The translations under genes were made by a program, and so were the position numbers. Source: Spirochaetota bacterium (GTDB lineage Bacteria > Spirochaetota > UBA4802 > JAFGDQ01). From it: DNA of 64,000 bases. Under the pieces are notes generated by a model, which saw only the letters and a list, made by a program, of their open reading frames with translations, was not told the DNA's origin and searched no databases. Location of the stretch: assembly GCA_016932015.1 (NCBI GenBank), contig JAFGDQ010000055.1, positions 1 to 64,000 of the forward strand, in the 5' to 3' direction. This document shows positions 10,668 through 51,753 of the stretch, piece after piece (position 1 is the stretch's first letter; every line of letters starts with the position of its first letter).

Positions 10668-13393
10668 ATGGTTATTTTGTGCATGAGACACGCCCTTTTT
10701 CAAAAGACGGGAAAACACCTTTAATTGCAGGCAAGCCTGATATCATCAAATTTCCTTTACATTATCTGCGTAAAGGTATGAATATTTTAGCAATCAGAAC
10801 AGGTGCTCTTGATTTTTCCGGGGGGTTCGACGGGAAACTGCTCCTGGGAGCGAATGAAAAAATTAAGTCTGTCTGGATGAGAAACATCCTTTGGAATTTT
10901 TGTATCGGCTCTATCTTCATTTTTCTTAGTTTTTATTTTCTTCTTTATTATTGGAGAAGAAAAAATGAAAAATATTATCTGTTTTTTTCAGCCATGTCTT
11001 TTTTTGGCGGCCTCTGGAGTATAGCTTTTAAGGGTTATATTCAATGGATATTTGATTATCAGTGGATATATATATTATTTGTTCATAATGGTGAATTTCT
11101 TTTTTCCTACATGTTTGTTAATTTTGTTAATTCCTTTCTGAATTATAAGAAAACAATTATAACAAAAATATTTCTTCTTTTTTATATAATTCTCAGCATA
11201 ACTGTAACGATAGAATTTTTCATTACAGGATCTATTTTTTATTTTATAAAATATTTATACGACCTTTTTTTGTTTAGCTGCATACCTGTAAATCTTTATT
11301 TGATTTTCCTTTGTATTAAGGGTATAAAACAAAAAATATCTTTTTCAAATAGATTGTTATTAGGAATTATCTTGTACAGCATTGCTACAGTCTTAACTAT
11401 AATTATGTATACATTTGCCACAACTGAAAGTATATTTAATATTATAAATATTACCAAGTTTGACCAACCTGCAATGGAAGGCTTCTTTGCTATGATTATT
11501 GTCTTTGCCACAATACTTGCATCGCGTTTTTCTCAGATACATAATGACCTTGAAAAAGCGCATGAAGAATTGCTTAAAGTAGATAAAATGAAAGACGAAT
11601 TCATGGCTGTCACATCTCACGAGCTTCGCACGCCTCTTCTCGGAATTGAGGGACTTGCCGATTCAATGCTTGACGGCGCTGCAGGCAAACTATCACCGGA
11701 AGCAAGAAGAAATATAGAAATGATCGCTCTTTCAGGGAAAAGGCTGTCTACTCTTGTGAATGATATTCTTGACCTGTCAAGGATCAAGTACAGTAAGTTA
11801 AACCTGAATAAAAAAAATATTGATTTTAAGCATCTTGCAGGTGTGGCAGTAAAATTTTCAGAATCAGCATTCAAATATAAAAATATAAGGATTATAAATA
11901 ATATACCCGATGACTCCCCTGGAATATTCGCTGACCCTAACCGCTTTCTGCAGATAATGCATAACCTGATTGAAAACGCGATTAAATATACAAACAAAGG
12001 ACAAATCTTAATTTACTCACGAGTCCTTAAGAACTTTGTTGAAATAACTGTACAGGACACCGGGCTTGGCATTTCTCCTGAAAGATTTGAAGATATTTTC
12101 AAATCATTTGAACAGCTTGATTCCTCAATTACAAGGATGTACCAGGGAACCGGTCTCGGGCTTTCAATAACAAAACAGCTTATTGAACTTCATGGAGGTG
12201 AAATACATGTGGAATCCACTCCGGGCATTGGCAGCAAGTTCATTTTTACAATGCCGGTTTATTCTGATCAGGACAAATCAGATAAAACAAATCCTGAAAG
12301 TAATACCGATTCATCCTATACGGATGAAATTGTAAAACTTTCATCTTTTTCAATTCTTGGAACAGGCTTAACACAGCCTCACAATGAAAAAAAAACAGAC
12401 AGCTCAGCAGATACATCACACAGAAATGGAAAATATATACTTGTTGTTGATGATGAACCTGTTATTCAGAATGTATTGAAAAATATACTAACGCTAAACG
12501 GATACAGGGTTGACACAGCAGGTGACGGTAATGCTGCAATGGAAAAGCTTGAAACCGGAGAACTGCCTGATCTTGTTATACTCGATATTATGCTTCCCGG
12601 AATTTCGGGTTTCGACATATGCAGAAAAATACGCGAGAATCATCCTCTCTACGATCTTCCGATTCTTATGTGTACTGCAAAAACGGAGATTACTGACATG
12701 GTTACAGGCATGGAATCAGGAGCTAACGACTATTTAGCAAAACCATTTGACAAACGTGAACTTATCGCAAGAGTCAGCACGCTTATTCTGTTAAAAGACA
12801 CAATTGATGAATACAAAGTCACAAGATTAAGCAATCTGCAGAAAAGGCTAAGTCCTCATTTTCTGTTTAATGCTATTCATGCAATACATTCACTTATACA
12901 CACGAACCCTGAAAAAGCCGATGCAGGAATATTGAGACTTGCAGAGATATACCGCTATTTAGTGGACAGGTCACTGGAACAGACTGTGGATTTCAGTGAA
13001 GAATGGAATTTCGTAAAAAGTTATCTCGAATTTGAAAAAATAAGATTTCCTGAGATTCTTTCATATAAGCTTATATTAAACGGAGACTTTAAAAGAATAA
13101 AGATACCGCCTCTTATTCTTCAGCCTCTTGTTGAAAATGCTATCAAGCACGGCATACGCAGAAAAACAAATCCGGGCCTTATTGAAGTATATGCCGAAAT
13201 GGATGAGAATGAAATTATACTTACCGTAATTGATGACGGACCGGGCCCGGATTCCGGAAATCATTTCTCAAGATCTTTGGGAAATATTCGCGAAAGACTG
13301 AAGCTGCATTTCAGGGAATCTGAAATTACTCTGCAGAAATATAAGAAAAACGGTGCTATTGCTATTGTGAAATTCAGTGCTGATTCAAAATAA
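10580..13393 (+). CDS. Hybrid sensor kinase: 7TM, HisKA/HATPase, receiver, LytS-type kinase
   Basis: A 937-residue open frame holding most of a membrane sensor. Order: end of the DISM beta domain (about 22-92), seven or so transmembrane segments (about 100-315), a coiled linker, HisKA with the phospho-acceptor His347 in SHELRTP, HATPase with N, G1 (DTGLGI) and G2 (GTGLGL) boxes, a receiver domain (VVDDEP, phospho-acceptor Asp in LVILDIMLPG, conserved K in AKPFD), then a second kinase of the LytS/YehU type (LSPHFLFNAIHAI, LVENAIKHG). ATG 10580 has AAGGAAAA before it, but the domain start is cut off by the frameshift described in the previous entry. The output partner is unknown; no LytTR or OmpR regulator is adjacent. 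It ends in a strong terminator. Confidence 0.85.
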   Translation: MVSFKHRTGQNKSHLTPIPRHFRGAQFYLNGYFVHETRPFSKDGKTPLIAGKPDIIKFPLHYLRKGMNILAIRTGALDFSGGFDGKLLLGANEKIKSVWMRNILWNFCIGSIFIFLSFYFLLYYWRRKNEKYYLFFSAMSFFGGLWSIAFKGYIQWIFDYQWIYILFVHNGEFLFSYMFVNFVNSFLNYKKTIITKIFLLFYIILSITVTIEFFITGSIFYFIKYLYDLFLFSCIPVNLYLIFLCIKGIKQKISFSNRLLLGIILYSIATVLTIIMYTFATTESIFNIINITKFDQPAMEGFFAMIIVFATILASRFSQIHNDLEKAHEELLKVDKMKDEFMAVTSHELRTPLLGIEGLADSMLDGAAGKLSPEARRNIEMIALSGKRLSTLVNDILDLSRIKYSKLNLNKKNIDFKHLAGVAVKFSESAFKYKNIRIINNIPDDSPGIFADPNRFLQIMHNLIENAIKYTNKGQILIYSRVLKNFVEITVQDTGLGISPERFEDIFKSFEQLDSSITRMYQGTGLGLSITKQLIELHGGEIHVESTPGIGSKFIFTMPVYSDQDKSDKTNPESNTDSSYTDEIVKLSSFSILGTGLTQPHNEKKTDSSADTSHRNGKYILVVDDEPVIQNVLKNILTLNGYRVDTAGDGNAAMEKLETGELPDLVILDIMLPGISGFDICRKIRENHPLYDLPILMCTAKTEITDMVTGMESGANDYLAKPFDKRELIARVSTLILLKDTIDEYKVTRLSNLQKRLSPHFLFNAIHAIHSLIHTNPEKADAGILRLAEIYRYLVDRSLEQTVDFSEEWNFVKSYLEFEKIRFPEILSYKLILNGDFKRIKIPPLILQPLVENAIKHGIRRKTNPGLIEVYAEMDENEIILTVIDDGPGPDSGNHFSRSLGNIRERLKLHFRESEITLQKYKKNGAIAIVKFSADSK

Positions 13394-13437
13394 AAAAAGT
13401 CCGGTGAATAAATGAATAGGTTTACCGGACTTTTTTT
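13393..13437 (+). terminator. Rho-independent terminator
   Basis: A 13-bp stem (13393-13405 with 13424-13436, core AGTCCGGT) follows the sensor kinase stop codon directly and ends in a run of seven T. Its A/T symmetry means it may also work for the convergent NmrA-like gene. Confidence 0.85.
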
Positions 13438-13472
13438 ATGTTAAACTTTTAATGCCTGAAATATCAGCATCT

Positions 13473-21808: not shown

Positions 21809-22224
21809 GAAGATTGCAAATAACTTTACGTAAAAATATAACTTATTTTTCCCCACTGAATACGACAGTACAGAATAATTTTTCTCCGCATCATACCTCA
21901 CTTTAAATATTATTATAAATTCAATCATTCTAACAAAAATTGATAAGATTAAACTTCATATTCTCCGATTTAATTAGTATGACGATTATGGTGAAATAAG
22001 GATTTGTTTTATTTATTTTTTATAGAAAAAATACTCTGTAAAACCTTGTAATAATTTCAAATTCAGTAACAAAAAGAAAACAGAATTATACTTTATAGTT
22101 TAGCTGTTTGTTTTAAAAAAAATAAATGTAGCTGCTCAGCTATTTGGATTTTTTATGTAAAAACCGTTCGGCAAGAATAATTATAAATAAATTTTAAACC
22201 ACTAATAGAGATAACTGAAATTAT
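21809..22224. other. AT-rich intergenic region, no gene seen
   Basis: About 415 bases between the cyclophilin terminator and the EAL protein. It presumably holds the latter's promoter. I see no clear -35/-10 pair, hairpin or coding frame. Confidence 0.5.
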
Positions 22225-31731: not shown

Positions 31732-31785
31732 AATTCCTCTGACTCGTCCGGCATTATTCTAAATGCCGGACGAGTCAGAGGAATT
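31732..31785. repeat. Perfect 24-bp inverted repeat with 6-nt loop
   Basis: Bases 31732-31755 and 31762-31785 are perfect reverse complements (outer AATTCCTCTGACTC, inner GTCCGGCATT), separated by six bases. No run of T follows, so it is not a typical terminator. It lies 52 bases after the acyl-CoA dehydrogenase stop and 40 bases before the next start codon. It may be a stabiliser, RNase III target, protein site or small mobile repeat. Confidence 0.75.
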
Positions 31786-44550: not shown

Positions 44551-47500
44551 TTATGATCTTAAAGGCAGCCATAAAACAGCTTTTGTTCCTTTATTCAGCT
44601 TACTATTAATTGTTATTGAACCGTCATGTTCTTCTATAATTTTCTTTACTATGGAAAGCCCCAGCCCGGTTCCGCGTGCTTTTGTTGTAAACAGCGGATC
44701 AAAAGCCTTTTCAAGAGTAGTGCCATTCATTCCGATTCCGTTATCTTCTACTGATATCCTGAAGCCCCCTTTTTCTGAAATATCGCTGTAATTTACATCT
44801 TGTTCGGGGCCGATAAATTCCACATTTAAATTAATCTCCGGTTTAAACGGCCTGTTTTCAGCTTCTTCATTCTTAAGCCTTTCCTCAACAGCCTGAACAG
44901 CATTTGTAAGCAGATTGGCCACGACTCTGGTCATCTTTATACGGTCAATATAAATAGCCGGCAGATCATCAGGAATATTTTTACTGATTATTTCAATATT
45001 ATTATATTGTATGTCGTCAAATACATTGCTCAGCCACGAAACCGCATTCTCCTCACGGATTTCTGCATTTCTTTCGCGGGTATATTCAAGCAATTCCTCA
45101 ACTATAGAGTTACAAAGATCAATCTGATATTCAATTCTGTTCAGATGTTTTGCTATTTTTTCGTCAGCCAGTTTAATTTTTTCTTTTAAGTAAAATGCTG
45201 ATGAACGTATAACGCCAAGAGGATTTCTGAGTTCATGACTGACTGTTGCAGTAAGCTGGCCTAGAACTGAAAGACGTTCTTTTTTTATAAGCTCCTCCTG
45301 TGCCTCATCCAGTTTTTTTGTCCTTTCCAAAACCAGCTCTTCAAGATGCTCGCGGTGCTTTTCCAGTTCCTCTTCCTCATGTTTCCGCTTTGTAATATCC
45401 TGGACAATTGATACTACACCTATAATCTGCCCGTCTACGGCGATCAATGGAGTATTAAACCATTCGCAAATAATATTATTCCCATCGCTTGTTTTATTCT
45501 GAGTTTCACTGTATATACCTGTTTTATTTTTAAAAACATACTGCCAGGACGTTTCAATCTCAGAGCGGTTTTCTTCCGGAATCAGGAAACTGATATGCCG
45601 GTTAATAGCTTCATCTGATGAATAATTAAAAATACGTTCGGCTGCAGGATTCCATGATAATGCCCTGAAATCCATATCCCATTCAATAACCCCAAGCGGA
45701 GACTGCTGTACAAGAAGTGAAAGTCTTTGCTGCGATTCACGTATTTTTTCACGCAATCCTACAGTAAATAACGCAATACCTCCCTGATCAGCAAGAGTCT
45801 GATACAAAGACATTTGCTCATCACCAAAAAAATTCAAATGCGTAGAGTGTATACCTATGTACCCGATCCAGTCTTTACCGTTTGACAGGGGAAATGAAGC
45901 AATACTTTTCACATTGGATCTTTGAAACACATCTATACTTGCGGGATCCTGACGATAATCAAATTCAATGTTGTTTGAGACAAATGGCCTGTCAGGATTA
46001 TAAAAATCAATAGTTTCATAAGTAGAAGCAGGTAACCGGGTTCCCGTTGGAACAACATCAATTATACCGCTTTTAAATCCTTCCTGGCGGCGTAAAATCA
46101 CATCACGCGAATCCCCGGATTTATCAAAAGTACAAATTGTTACATGAGCTTCAGAATAAATTTCAGAATGCTGCATTAATATATCAAGCACTTCATCCTC
46201 AGTTTCAGCCTCAGAAAGAGCTTTGCTCACTTCATAACGTATTTGTGTTTCATTCAGATTACGCTTAATCTGTGATTCACTCTTCTTCCTGTCGCTAATA
46301 TCGCGCGCAACCACCAGTATACGGTCGCGTCCGTCTATTAAAGCTTTTCTCATGCTTATTTCTGTCCAGAATATACGGCCATTTTTATCCATAGATTTCC
46401 ATTCAAACAGCTGAGGCCCTTCGGACATTGTTTTTCGTATCCATTCGTCGGCTTCCTTACGGCTGAAACCTGTTTCATTTGAATTTATATCAGCTGCCGA
46501 TAATTTGAGTGCCTCTTCGCGGGTATATCCGAACATAGCACACATCTTGGAGTTTACATCAATTATTGCACCTGTGTGAAAATCGTGAATAATTATCGCA
46601 TCATTTACTGATTCAAAAATTGTTTTAAACCGCTCTTCACTTTCCTTAAGAGCTTTCTCCGCAGCTTTGCGTTCGGTAATTTCCTGCTGTGCCTGCTGGA
46701 ACAGTAAAGCATTTTCAATTGCAATAGCTGCCTGCCCGGACAGCATTTCAAGAATCTCGATTCGATCAGGAGTAAAAGCACTTGTTACAAGATTATTTTC
46801 GAGATAAAGAATTCCTGTAAGTTTTCTCCTGTTTGTCAGCGGAATACAAAGAATAGACCTGGCTTTATTATGTTTAATGTAAGGATCATCAGAAAACAGG
46901 CTGTCATTGATTGCATCATCAATCATAACACTTTCATGAGTCCGGCTAACATATCTGACTATCGACCTGCATATTGTATTGCTTCCATCAATATCAACGG
47001 AATTAAGATTTACCGAAGTCTTAAAATCGGTACCCGATTCGAAATCGACAGAACTGTCCGCTTCAATGAACCATCTGCCGTCTTTTTTAAGCAGAAGGCA
47101 CCCTCTGCCTGCTCCTGCATTTTCAATTAGAATTTTCATCAGATCATTCAGCAAATCCTCCATTATAATGCGTCCGGAAATAATCTGTGATGCTTTAATT
47201 ACGGATTTAATATCAAGTACGCCATGTTTTCCTGTATCAACAGTGCGGTACTCTTGCTGAATAGAAGACAAATCAAGAATTTGACTGAACTTGTTTTTAA
47301 TATAATTTGTCTTTGCCCAGGCCTGCCAGCGCAAATAACGTTCATAAGCCCTGGTTATATATAAACCTGCGATTTCTTCCTTTCCCTGCTGAAGATAAAA
47401 CCCGGCAGCAAGTTCATAAGACAATGCCTCTTCATTCAGAAAAAAATTCTCTCTTGATCCTTCAATAGCCCTTTCATAAAATAAAGCTGCATCTCCGAAC

Positions 47501-50500
47501 CTGCCTTCAATCCTGGCTTTTTCAGCCTTCATTAGGTATTTTTTATGCTGATGATTCATCGGGGCATTAGTTGCCCAGAAATCAAACTCTTTCATATTCC
47601 GGTCAACCCGGTCAATAATACGGTCCAGTTCTTCTGCATCATTTTGTGCAGAGGCTGTTGTATTAGCCAGTGTATCATAAAAATAAAAAAAAGGCATCAA
47701 ATACATACCTGTACAATATAACAGATGTTCCTCTGCTTCGCGAAACATTTCAACTGATTCTGGCTGCCTGAACATAAAACGAAGCCATGCTTTGTAGATA
47801 AGTATTTTGATTACTTCGCTGTGGTCTTTCTCTTCAAAAGCCGTTCTCAGCATATCATCTTCGTTATAATTTTCGCCTTTAAGAATCCAGGGAACCTCAC
47901 TCTTGCCCTGCAGATTTAAAGCAGCCTGATATACGGTCAAACTGCAGTTCTCTGCAGCCTTGATATCAAGTTTTCTTGAAATCTCCACAGCATTCCGGCT
48001 GTCTTTTTCAACTTCTCCCAAAGGTTCACCCAGATACAGACGATGAGATGAATACCACCAGGCACAATGAGCGGCGTTTTCCGACATTCCTGTATTGAGA
48101 CTCGATTTATATCCCTCTAAAAGAACTGGTAATGTATTTTTTAAATGTTCATACTGATGAAGCAAAAAAGCACCCGTCGTTATACTGATCTTGTGAGTAA
48201 GTTTACAGGATGAATATTTGGCAGCGAGAAGCTGCAGACCGGCATCCGTAATAAGTTTTGCTTTGGGAATATCATGTAAAGTGGAACTTACAGACATGGC
48301 AAAAATTACAAGCAATAGAGGCGCTTTAGGGGCAAGCCCTTTCTCGAAACAAAGCCTGGAAATCTGAGAAATCAATTGAAATGCAAGTGCTAAATCAATT
48401 GAATACAACGCTCTGATCATTGCATAGGATGTTTCATAAATCCATGACATACTGAGTGAAGCCTCTGGCAGGGTATAAAGTGTTTTGATACGGTCATGGG
48501 TAAACCAGTTTGCAGTATCCCTTAAATATTCAATCGACTCCCCGTATGAAGGATTTCTTTTGATTGTAATTCCAAGCGATTTCAGTAAATCAAGACCAAT
48601 ATCAACTGCATGACTATAATCCCTCCTGGAAAGAGCAGCTCTTAAATTCGCGTGTTTTGCAACCGCAGTATCTTCGACAGAAACAGCATTCTGTTCTATT
48701 GTCTGTACAATCTTTTTCAGTTGTCCGTAATTCTCTCCTAATGAAAGTAAATAGGCCATCTGTGAATGAATTCTCAACATGGAATCATAATGGGAATTCC
48801 AGGCATTATCAGGCATCAAATTTAAAGCGTTTTCAAGATATGTCCGTGATGAGCTGAAGGCCCCCGCTTTAGCAGCAGCATTCGAAGCTTCAATATTTAA
48901 TTCAGCAATCTGTGCGCCTTTCTCTGTACCTTTTACCGCAGAATCAGACAGATTATAATGGCGGACAATGTCAAAAAGCAGTTGTTCATCCTCCTGCGCG
49001 GATTGCCTGTTGTACTGGTCCATAAGTAAATTCGCAATTTTTAAATGAATACTCCGCCGTCTCTCTGGCTGTATCTGTTTATAAACAGCCTCCAGTACCC
49101 GGTCATGCTGAAACCTGAATCTCGCCTGTTCTACAGTTTCAGGAAACATGAAGTTATCATCCTTCGCGATTATTACTGCATCATCAACAGATTGAGATAA
49201 CATTTCCAGGACTTCCTCAGTATTCAAATTTCCGATTTTTGAAAGAATACCTAAATCGAACTCATTACCGATACAGGCTGCCAGCTCGAGTAATTTTATT
49301 TTTTCACCAGAATATTTTTTAATCTTACGCGATAACAGTTCCACATTATTCGTGAAGTTATTCTTGCTGATCTGATTCTTATCCCATTTCCAGACTTTTG
49401 ATTTATAATCAAAATAAAGCAATCCTGATTCAAAAATATTTTCCAGAAGCTGATGCAGCATAAATGGATTGCCGCTGGTTTTTTCAAAAAGCACTTCACT
49501 CAGTTCAGATACATTATCTGCTTTAAACGATAAAGTCTCCTGTATAAGCTTTTCGATATTTTCAATCTGAAGATTTTCCAGACTTATTTCCCTTACAGAC
49601 TTCCCTTCTGCCCGGATTTCATTGAAAGTATTTTTGCAGGCAAATACCTCTTCCGGATTATCTTCTCTGCATGCGGCAATTATCAACAGCTGATTTATCT
49701 GTTCACCTTCCATCAGTGTTTTTAACAAATCCAGAGAGGCTGCGTCAGCCCATTGCAGATCATCAATAAAAATAACAAGCGGAGGCCTGACACTGCTGAT
49801 GACGCGGATAAAATTTCTGAAAGCAAGTTTAAAACGGGTTTGCCCGCGCTGCCCTTCGAGTTCAGAGACAGGCATCTGCTTCCCGATTATTTTCTCAATA
49901 TCCGGTATTATATTCTTTAAAACCAGTCCATTTTCTCCAAGAACGGAAATAATTTTAGTCCGCCATAATGAGAGAATATTTTCATGTTCAATTAAAATTA
50001 ATTCCACAAGCTGACGGAATGCCTGAAAAAAACCCGTATATGGTATATCCTGTCTACTTTGTTCAAAATTGCCCCTGATAAAATAACCGTATTTCTTAAT
50101 AACTGATTCGCGCAATTCCACAGCAAAAGCAGATTTTCCCGTGCCTGTTGCGCCTGTAAGCAGAACCAGCTCGCAGCCTCCACGCGCAGCTTTGTTAAAA
50201 CTTTCTGATAATATTCTGAATTTCGATTCAATTCCATATAACTTCTGAGGGATACGAAGTTTCCCGGAAAAATCATCCTGTCCGGGAATAAACTTGTAAA
50301 ATTTTTTATCTTCATCTGAATAACTTAAAAATTGCCTGCAGCGTTCCAGATCCGTCTTCAGGCCATAAGCTGACTGATACCTGTCTTCCGCATTCTTTTC
50401 CAGAAGTTTCATAATTATTCCGGATAAACATTCCGGAACATCAGAATTTTTGACATTCAACGGTTTTGGAGAACGCGCTATTTGAGCATGGACAAGAGTA

Positions 50501-51177
50501 AGTAAATCATCACTTTCGAATGGAGGGGTGCCTGTTAGAAAAAAATAAAAAGAGGCTCCCAATGAGTAAAGGTCACTGCGGGAATCTGTGACTCTGTTTA
50601 TACGGCCAGTCTGTTCAGGTGAAATATATTCCGGAAAATATTTAAGTTTTCCCGTAATTACTGCTTCGGAATACTCTTCATCCATCATTGATGCATTAGC
50701 AAATCCCGCAATCCTGATTATACCTGTTCCGCGGTCATAAAATAATGAATAAGGGTTTATATTTTTATGAATGATCCCGGCTGCATGAATTTCAAGTAAC
50801 GTATTGGCAAACCGTATAGCAACATGCAGAAACTCGTCAATCGATTGAAAAATACTCTCATTTTTATCATGACGTATCAGAGCGGAATTGAGAGAACGGA
50901 AACCCAGGTCTTCCATTACCATAACAAGACAATCCGGATATGTCTTCAGATCAAACGCCTGAATTACACCTTCAATTTTTTTTAACCTGTTAAGTATCTG
51001 AAATTCTCTTTTAAAACGGTTTTGCTCCTCAACAGAAGAACTATCTTTTCTGAGAATTTTTACAGTAAAAATTTTACCGTCTTTTTCTCTGATTGCCCTG
51101 GAAAGAGAAACACTTCCAACCTCATCAAAAAGATGAAGAATTTGAAAACCGCTTATTATCTGTCCAAATCTGCTCAC
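44551..51177 (-). CDS. Giant signalling protein: pseudokinase-AAA ATPase-TPR-GAF-PAS-GAF-PAS-histidine kinase
   Basis: A 2208-residue protein. Order: Ser/Thr-kinase-like domain (1-285), AAA/STAND ATPase (Walker A GATGTGKS at 342-349, Walker B LVIFIDDLQWAD), long helical TPR-like region (about 700-1300), GAF, PAS (ending DISDRKKSE), GAF, PAS (ending DITKRKHEE), coiled coil, HisKA with SHELRNP near 1980, and HATPase (DNGIGM, GTGLGL). The kinase head keeps the ATP lysine (VKILRK) but its catalytic loop is HKN rather than HRD/HKD and the DFG position reads AGF, so it is probably inactive. Similar kinase-ATPase-histidine kinase giants occur in cyanobacteria and Leptospira. The start is the GTG at 51177, with CAGGAG six bases before it. 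No response regulator is adjacent. Confidence 0.9.
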   Translation of the reverse strand: MSRFGQIISGFQILHLFDEVGSVSLSRAIREKDGKIFTVKILRKDSSSVEEQNRFKREFQILNRLKKIEGVIQAFDLKTYPDCLVMVMEDLGFRSLNSALIRHDKNESIFQSIDEFLHVAIRFANTLLEIHAAGIIHKNINPYSLFYDRGTGIIRIAGFANASMMDEEYSEAVITGKLKYFPEYISPEQTGRINRVTDSRSDLYSLGASFYFFLTGTPPFESDDLLTLVHAQIARSPKPLNVKNSDVPECLSGIIMKLLEKNAEDRYQSAYGLKTDLERCRQFLSYSDEDKKFYKFIPGQDDFSGKLRIPQKLYGIESKFRILSESFNKAARGGCELVLLTGATGTGKSAFAVELRESVIKKYGYFIRGNFEQSRQDIPYTGFFQAFRQLVELILIEHENILSLWRTKIISVLGENGLVLKNIIPDIEKIIGKQMPVSELEGQRGQTRFKLAFRNFIRVISSVRPPLVIFIDDLQWADAASLDLLKTLMEGEQINQLLIIAACREDNPEEVFACKNTFNEIRAEGKSVREISLENLQIENIEKLIQETLSFKADNVSELSEVLFEKTSGNPFMLHQLLENIFESGLLYFDYKSKVWKWDKNQISKNNFTNNVELLSRKIKKYSGEKIKLLELAACIGNEFDLGILSKIGNLNTEEVLEMLSQSVDDAVIIAKDDNFMFPETVEQARFRFQHDRVLEAVYKQIQPERRRSIHLKIANLLMDQYNRQSAQEDEQLLFDIVRHYNLSDSAVKGTEKGAQIAELNIEASNAAAKAGAFSSSRTYLENALNLMPDNAWNSHYDSMLRIHSQMAYLLSLGENYGQLKKIVQTIEQNAVSVEDTAVAKHANLRAALSRRDYSHAVDIGLDLLKSLGITIKRNPSYGESIEYLRDTANWFTHDRIKTLYTLPEASLSMSWIYETSYAMIRALYSIDLALAFQLISQISRLCFEKGLAPKAPLLLVIFAMSVSSTLHDIPKAKLITDAGLQLLAAKYSSCKLTHKISITTGAFLLHQYEHLKNTLPVLLEGYKSSLNTGMSENAAHCAWWYSSHRLYLGEPLGEVEKDSRNAVEISRKLDIKAAENCSLTVYQAALNLQGKSEVPWILKGENYNEDDMLRTAFEEKDHSEVIKILIYKAWLRFMFRQPESVEMFREAEEHLLYCTGMYLMPFFYFYDTLANTTASAQNDAEELDRIIDRVDRNMKEFDFWATNAPMNHQHKKYLMKAEKARIEGRFGDAALFYERAIEGSRENFFLNEEALSYELAAGFYLQQGKEEIAGLYITRAYERYLRWQAWAKTNYIKNKFSQILDLSSIQQEYRTVDTGKHGVLDIKSVIKASQIISGRIIMEDLLNDLMKILIENAGAGRGCLLLKKDGRWFIEADSSVDFESGTDFKTSVNLNSVDIDGSNTICRSIVRYVSRTHESVMIDDAINDSLFSDDPYIKHNKARSILCIPLTNRRKLTGILYLENNLVTSAFTPDRIEILEMLSGQAAIAIENALLFQQAQQEITERKAAEKALKESEERFKTIFESVNDAIIIHDFHTGAIIDVNSKMCAMFGYTREEALKLSAADINSNETGFSRKEADEWIRKTMSEGPQLFEWKSMDKNGRIFWTEISMRKALIDGRDRILVVARDISDRKKSESQIKRNLNETQIRYEVSKALSEAETEDEVLDILMQHSEIYSEAHVTICTFDKSGDSRDVILRRQEGFKSGIIDVVPTGTRLPASTYETIDFYNPDRPFVSNNIEFDYRQDPASIDVFQRSNVKSIASFPLSNGKDWIGYIGIHSTHLNFFGDEQMSLYQTLADQGGIALFTVGLREKIRESQQRLSLLVQQSPLGVIEWDMDFRALSWNPAAERIFNYSSDEAINRHISFLIPEENRSEIETSWQYVFKNKTGIYSETQNKTSDGNNIICEWFNTPLIAVDGQIIGVVSIVQDITKRKHEEEELEKHREHLEELVLERTKKLDEAQEELIKKERLSVLGQLTATVSHELRNPLGVIRSSAFYLKEKIKLADEKIAKHLNRIEYQIDLCNSIVEELLEYTRERNAEIREENAVSWLSNVFDDIQYNNIEIISKNIPDDLPAIYIDRIKMTRVVANLLTNAVQAVEERLKNEEAENRPFKPEINLNVEFIGPEQDVNYSDISEKGGFRISVEDNGIGMNGTTLEKAFDPLFTTKARGTGLGLSIVKKIIEEHDGSITINSKLNKGTKAVLWLPLRS

Positions 51178-51215
51178 AAAATTCTCCTGCCATAAAACAG
51201 CTGGAAACAAAAAAG

Positions 51216-51245: not shown

Positions 51246-51505
51246 TAATAACTACATGAAAAAGTCCGGTTGAAAATAAAAAATATAAACCAGAATAAAT
51301 ATTAACCTGAATTTATGTTTTTTGATATTTTTCCCAGCCAAATAAGCTTTACAGTTTTCCTGTATCCTGATTACTTTCACTATTAGAATTTTTTCAATAA
51401 GTCAAATATATTTTAATCAGGTATCCAATCCTATGAATGCACAGTAAAACAGTTTTTTATTAAAATAAACGTAACTATCCAGATTTTATCTATATTATAC
51501 GTGAA

Positions 51506-51634
51506 AGCTGCTTCACAAGAGGAAATAATTATCAATTTGGCCTTCTCGTAAGATACATCATGTATCACTCGAAGGTCGGAAACATCCTGTTTTCATTCAA
51601 ATTGAGAATTATTCCTTCTTGTGAAGAGGTAGCT
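51506..51634. repeat. Long nested inverted-repeat element before cinA
   Basis: A left arm (51506-51539, containing CTTCACAAGAGGAAATAATT) is the near-complement of a right arm (51598-51634, containing AATTATTCCTTCTTGTGAAG), with three mismatches and a 3-base bulge. Inside, GGCCTTCTCG partly pairs with CGAAGGTC, and GATAC pairs with GTATC at 51552-51566. The 129-base block would fold into a long branched hairpin, 120 bases before the cinA start. It could be a structured leader, an excised small RNA or a miniature transposable element. The flanking 51246-51505 stretch shows nothing else. Confidence 0.6.
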
Positions 51635-51753
51635 GAATAGTTACAAATTAACAGGCATTCTCAATTAATTTGAAAATATATATTGATTTTCTTCAATCAA
51701 ACTGAATGATTGAATTTTCAATATTTTCATATAAGATTATTAAAGAGGTCGAA

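Follow-up and report, generated by a model that had tools for sequence, protein, structure and literature searches.

The nested inverted repeat that precedes cinA in the window (the whole stretch of 64,000 nucleotides of spirochaete DNA analysed here) is part of a 174-bp copy of a new family of miniature inverted-repeat transposable elements (MITEs) of the IS66/ISBst12 type, a kind that is already known. We consider it highly probable that the element belongs to an ISBst12/IS66-type MITE family moved in trans, in which the smaller size classes arose by internal deletion and the inner arms were kept matched by template switching. An earlier sequence-only reading had delimited a 129-base element and offered three options for it, a structured RNA, a miniature transposable element or a regulatory leader. 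The nested repeat proved real, but 51506-51634 is too short, the repeated unit being 51471-51644, and among the three options the transposable element is supported while the other two have no independent support.

Anatomy and setting of the window copy

The stretch 51506-51634 folds far more stably than its shuffled versions, with a minimum free energy of -50.4 kcal/mol on the + strand against -24.1 +/- 3.1 (z -8.4; 0 of 200 shuffles as low) and of -46.3 kcal/mol on the - strand (z -6.8). Its long arms, 51511-51539 and 51598-51626, are 29 nt each and 90% complementary, and they enclose the inner hairpins, which bears out the description of a nested repeat with few mismatches in its arms. The composition unlike that of the AT-rich flanks was also borne out, the GC content being 37% in this stretch, whereas the flanks on either side have 23% and 21%. 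On one side lies a large divergent ORF (44551-51210, - strand, 2219 aa), which by eye we take to resemble a fusion of a protein kinase with ATPase, GAF, PAS and histidine kinase parts, and on the other side lies cinA (likely start 51754; Pfam CinA match).

As expected of a MITE, the whole copy is 174 bp long, has paired terminal inverted repeats and contains no transposase gene (Table 1). The terminal repeats are imperfect (GTAACTATYCAG.../...CTGAATAGTTAC). With 3 mismatches in its left end and a 7/8 duplication, the window copy represents an insertion that is old and decayed, probably immobile and probably neutral for cinA. Two further inverted repeats were observed in the window, a perfect one of 24 bp with a 6-nt loop (31732-31785) and one of 25 nt that is 88% complementary with arms 12 nt apart (13384-13445).

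Table 1. Features of the MITE copy upstream of cinA (window coordinates)
Feature	Position	Strand	Evidence
Whole MITE copy, 174 bp (172-bp size class)	51471-51644		Paired IS66-type ends, 8-bp flanks, alignment to five other long copies
Left target-site duplication, AAATAAAC, 7/8 match to the right one	51463-51470
Right target-site duplication, AAATTAAC	51645-51652
Left terminal inverted repeat, decayed, 3 mismatches to GTAACTRYTCAGCTA	51471-51485	+
Right terminal inverted repeat, 0 mismatches to GTAACTRYTCAGCTA	51630-51644	-
Left inner arm, 29 nt	51511-51539	+
Right inner arm, 29 nt, covarying with the left arm between copies	51598-51626	+
Core hairpin 1, CCTTC...GAAGG around GATACATCATGTATC (51552-51566)	51541-51575	+	Fold, alignment; without covariation
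Core hairpin 2, GGAAACATCCTGTTTTC	51578-51594	+	Fold, alignment; without covariation

Dispersed copies and their insertion signature

The 129-mer has six further long matches (82-125 nt, 85-89% identity) in the 116 contigs (4.42 Mb) of the genome, together with many matching end fragments. The copies inspected with their flanks have the outer end GTAACTATTCAGCTA in common, inverted at the opposite side, and the pattern GTAACTRYTCAGCTA with at most 2 mismatches occurs at 152 sites in the genome versus 19 for the reversed control. We examined 78 of 79 fetched stretches, one being dropped as a duplicate of another. To the extent checked, every listed site with 0-1 mismatch is represented in them apart from one contig end (C54), but only a few sites with 2 mismatches are, which makes the copy numbers given here lower bounds. 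In these stretches 39 end pairs were found, representing 38 small elements and one element of 1544 bp, and 39 of the 78 stretches had no end pair (single ends, contig ends and truncated copies). The lengths of the small elements are discrete, namely 51-53, 61-63, 69-77, 99-100 and 172-191 bp (n = 38, including a 180-bp pair with 1/8 matching flanks, L113, that is probably spurious).

When the left and right flanks of the 38 small elements are compared, their identity is highest at a length of exactly 8 bp, where it is 0.832 compared with 0.405 +/- 0.031 after permutation and with 0.534 and 0.488 at the neighbouring lengths; ties among candidate end pairs were settled by flank identity, which introduces a small bias towards good duplications. 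The 8-bp flanks are at least 7/8 identical in 27 of the 38 elements, versus 1.0% of 1406 mismatched cross pairs, and reach at most 6/8 in the remaining 11. When the flanks were rejoined at insertion sites with full flanks, 30 of 32 sites spanned fewer than 100 open codons and are thus intergenic-like, while 85% of 2000 random window positions span at least 100. Copies are many, dispersed and mostly intergenic, as in other MITE families. The genome search that the sequence-only reading had suggested, for further copies with target-site duplications, thus yielded dispersed copies with common termini and 8-bp duplications, and an insertion sequence (IS) with the same ends (see below). A comparison with an empty allele at cinA in genome G001 was unsuccessful because the upstream gene differs at that locus.

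Two incomplete arrangements were also seen. At 22128-22142 of the window and in about 60 following bases, a single end GTAGCTGCTCAGCTA... is followed by an interior of subtype A, apparently a truncated copy of the family, and at another locus (C51:36599-36628 of this genome, G000) two element ends lie head to head with nothing between them, in 30 bp.

IS66-type ends and the putative source of the transposase

The 1544-bp element (C1:11436-12979) has the same ends as the small elements and contains a broken IS66 transposase (PF03050, in two pieces); its flanks are only 4/8 identical. In G008, a related genome from the same order, a 1536-bp IS bounded by these ends encodes an intact single ORF of 480 aa with DDE_Tnp_IS66 and zf-IS66 domains (PF03050, E 7e-43). 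Near-identical ends, GTGACTACTCAGCA / GTAACTGCTCAGCA, and likewise an 8-bp direct repeat are given for ISDge4, a member of the ISBst12 group of the IS66 family, in PMC12898284. Unlike the window element, which is 174 bp long and carries no gene, ISDge4 is autonomous and encodes a 449-aa transposase. For two other IS66 elements, PMC3281130 likewise gives 8-bp repeats. The window family combines ends of the GTAACTRYTCAGC type with an 8-bp duplication, as IS66 / ISBst12 elements do. Because the same ends bound IS66 elements and match those of ISDge4, we assign the MITE to the ISBst12/IS66 type.

Judging from these sequences, the element was most likely moved in trans by an ISBst12/IS66-type transposase. 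A transposase of the ISBst12 type (single-ORF IS66) would act on the GTAACT..CAGCTA ends and would move the MITE in trans, leaving the 8-bp duplication. Among the 116 contigs of this genome, no intact transposase is assembled. Of the contig ends fetched, fourteen break off about 80-87 bp into sequences that begin with GTAACTACTCAGCTAT, and these are of two kinds (8 and 6), from which we infer that they are both ends of a multi-copy IS collapsed by the assembly. When the MITE interior was compared with the IS of C1 and that of G008, only the ends matched (about 15-18 bp on each side), so the interior does not derive from either of these two IS; an interior derived from the parent IS is not required of a MITE.

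A REP/BIME-like extragenic palindrome, or a local quasi-palindrome, that spread without mobilisation by a DDE transposase would also be small, palindromic, intergenic and repeated, yet it would not account for the 8-bp flank duplications and the IS66-type ends, and we consider such an origin extremely improbable.

According to PMC10969869 and PMC2229807, bacterial MITEs are typically AT-rich and intergenic and form stable stem-loops, so the anatomy of the window element is what would be expected. Like it, the Correia/NEMIS, RUP and QMITE2 elements described there are small and intergenic, with terminal repeats, duplications and transcripts that form long stem-loops, QMITE2 having 7-9-bp repeats and a core of 113-145 bp. 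Their ends differ, many having TA at the termini and RUP being linked to IS630-Spn1, whereas the window element has IS66-type ends and, unlike them, a second palindrome inside that is separate from the terminal repeats. No published MITE family with IS66 ends was found in the open-access literature searched, and 'IS66' does not occur in the main text of the MITE review PMC10969869. The present family thus adds a dispersed MITE family bearing IS66 (ISBst12) ends.

Size classes and their probable origin by internal deletion

Copies of subtype A differ in a GCTCCGC repeat. It lies on both sides of the inner segment in a 172-bp copy and, on the other strand as GCGGAGC, also in some 100-bp copies, but occurs only once in 62-bp copies. 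This pattern suggests slippage deletion beside a palindrome. The smaller classes would accordingly have arisen from the ~172-bp form by internal deletion, partly at short direct repeats beside the palindrome. They bear 8-bp duplications of their own, and may either move by themselves or have shrunk in place. The same pattern could instead indicate nested elements, that is, the insertion of a second palindromic mobile element, consisting of the inner arms and core, into an IS66-ended MITE of ~62 bp, since the GCTCCGC repeat that flanks the segment and is single in the 62-bp class behaves as a 7-bp target duplication would. However, every long core match inspected sits within the outer ends or beside their remnant, subtypes B and C have no GCTCCGC direct repeat, and slippage deletion between the repeats yields the same pattern; we therefore regard nesting as quite unlikely and favour internal deletion.

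Covariation of the inner arms

Six copies of 172-191 bp were aligned. Of the segments measured in them, the inner arms vary most in their outer part (pairwise identity 0.70-0.72), compared with 0.92-0.94 for the inner part of the arms and 0.88 for the core. Despite this variability the arms match each other within a copy, the outer 13 nt having an identity of 0.923 within copies versus 0.710 between copies (2 of 720 matchings as good). No such covariation is seen between the terminal repeats of the 38 elements (0.809 within copies versus 0.817 between). In the arm helix 96.0% of cells are paired and 6 of 29 pairs are changed on both sides, and in the three core helices no pair is, in an alignment of only six sequences. 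Over the whole structure, 13 cells are changed on both sides versus 5.3 +/- 1.7 in shuffled alignments (0 of 500 as high); counted as pairs changed on both sides the excess is weak (29 of 500 shuffles as high), and the number of further pair types is not raised (433 of 500). Segments are also inverted: 2 of the 6 long copies have the core in the opposite orientation with respect to the asymmetric outer parts, and in the 100-bp class 5 of 8 copies have the outer left-arm part inverted. One long copy (L085; C69, within 283-473) has an extra core hairpin of 18 nt with GTAACCATTCAGGTTAC, resembling two joined end fragments.

Template switching between the arms of a palindrome is reported to homogenise the arms and invert spacers (PMC8604942), and both to create hairpins and to maintain them, with compensatory changes (PMC8794818). 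Since the inner arms covary, the terminal repeats and core hairpins do not, and segments are inverted, template switching between palindrome arms best explains the arm covariation. Polymerase template switching, by homogenising arms and inverting segments, would thus keep the inner arms matched, rather than selection on an RNA.

A small RNA or a leader under selection for its fold, dispersed by riding on the MITE, would be consistent with the strong fold, with the excess of cells changed on both sides in the arm helix and with the conservation of the core among the six copies. However, no core pair is changed on both sides, the core is absent altogether from many copies and was found only in this genome among 59 searched, and the few arm mismatches (3 G-T, 2 A-C) show no clear G-U excess. 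No structured RNA class had been recognised in the sequence-only reading, and the Rfam scan agrees, giving 0 matches at gathering thresholds in the whole window and, below threshold, 7 matches (best E 0.5) that are all far under their own cut-offs; scans for promoters and terminators gave no signal beyond chance. Taken together, such an RNA seems very unlikely. The lack of covariation that had been named as refuting turned out not to be decisive, as the arms covary and the core hairpins do not, and because palindromes can acquire covariation at the DNA level, that of the arms does not decide for RNA. Common tests for covariation are thus passed by the palindromic arms of copies of a probably functionless transposon, and in foldback elements covariation should not be taken as proof of RNA.

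Same-ended elements in other genomes

Outside this genome the 129-mer had a sole match among the 59 genomes searched (its own included), of ~36 nt at 86% identity in G001, which has no IS66-type ends nearby and was rejected as a copy of the family. The 174-bp element had no match in plasmid and phage collections. A conserved 23-mer of the arm had 0 matches in viral contigs and one in genome contigs (Flagellimonas), which we take to be due to chance because the surrounding ~520 bases contain no IS66-type end.

IS66-type ends are present in 25 of the 98 genomes tried, G000 included. Pairs of ends 137-204 bp apart were found in five genomes of the same order, with flanks matching at 8/8 twice in G002, 8/8 in G004, 8/8 twice and 6/8 once in G008, 0/8 and 6/8 in G010, and 7, 5, 5 and 3 of 8 in G033; G020 has a further pair 612 bp apart (flanks 3/8). 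With stricter exact patterns applied to the 46 genomes of the order, a pair 136-166 bp apart occurs in three (G002, G033 and G008), and a short pair of 51-81 bp only in G000.

The elements of these five genomes have ends like those of the window element and, by eye, unrelated interiors; those of G004, G008, G010 and G033 contain a long interior palindrome, and those of G002 do not. As unrelated interior palindromes recur in G000, G004, G008, G010 and G033, the interior hairpin may itself be useful to ISBst12-type MITEs, with the arm covariation reflecting selection on a DNA hairpin instead of a by-product of mutation, an idea that we consider conceivable though unlikely. If true, the hairpin could help to unite the ends while the DNA is single-stranded in replication, or it could limit read-through. 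MITE-like elements of 137-143 bp with the same or nearly the same ends were observed on C1, C13, C35 and C39 of G033, C18 of G004, and C8 and C24 of G010, and those of all three genomes have a GC-rich central hairpin (a C-run plus GCCGCC).
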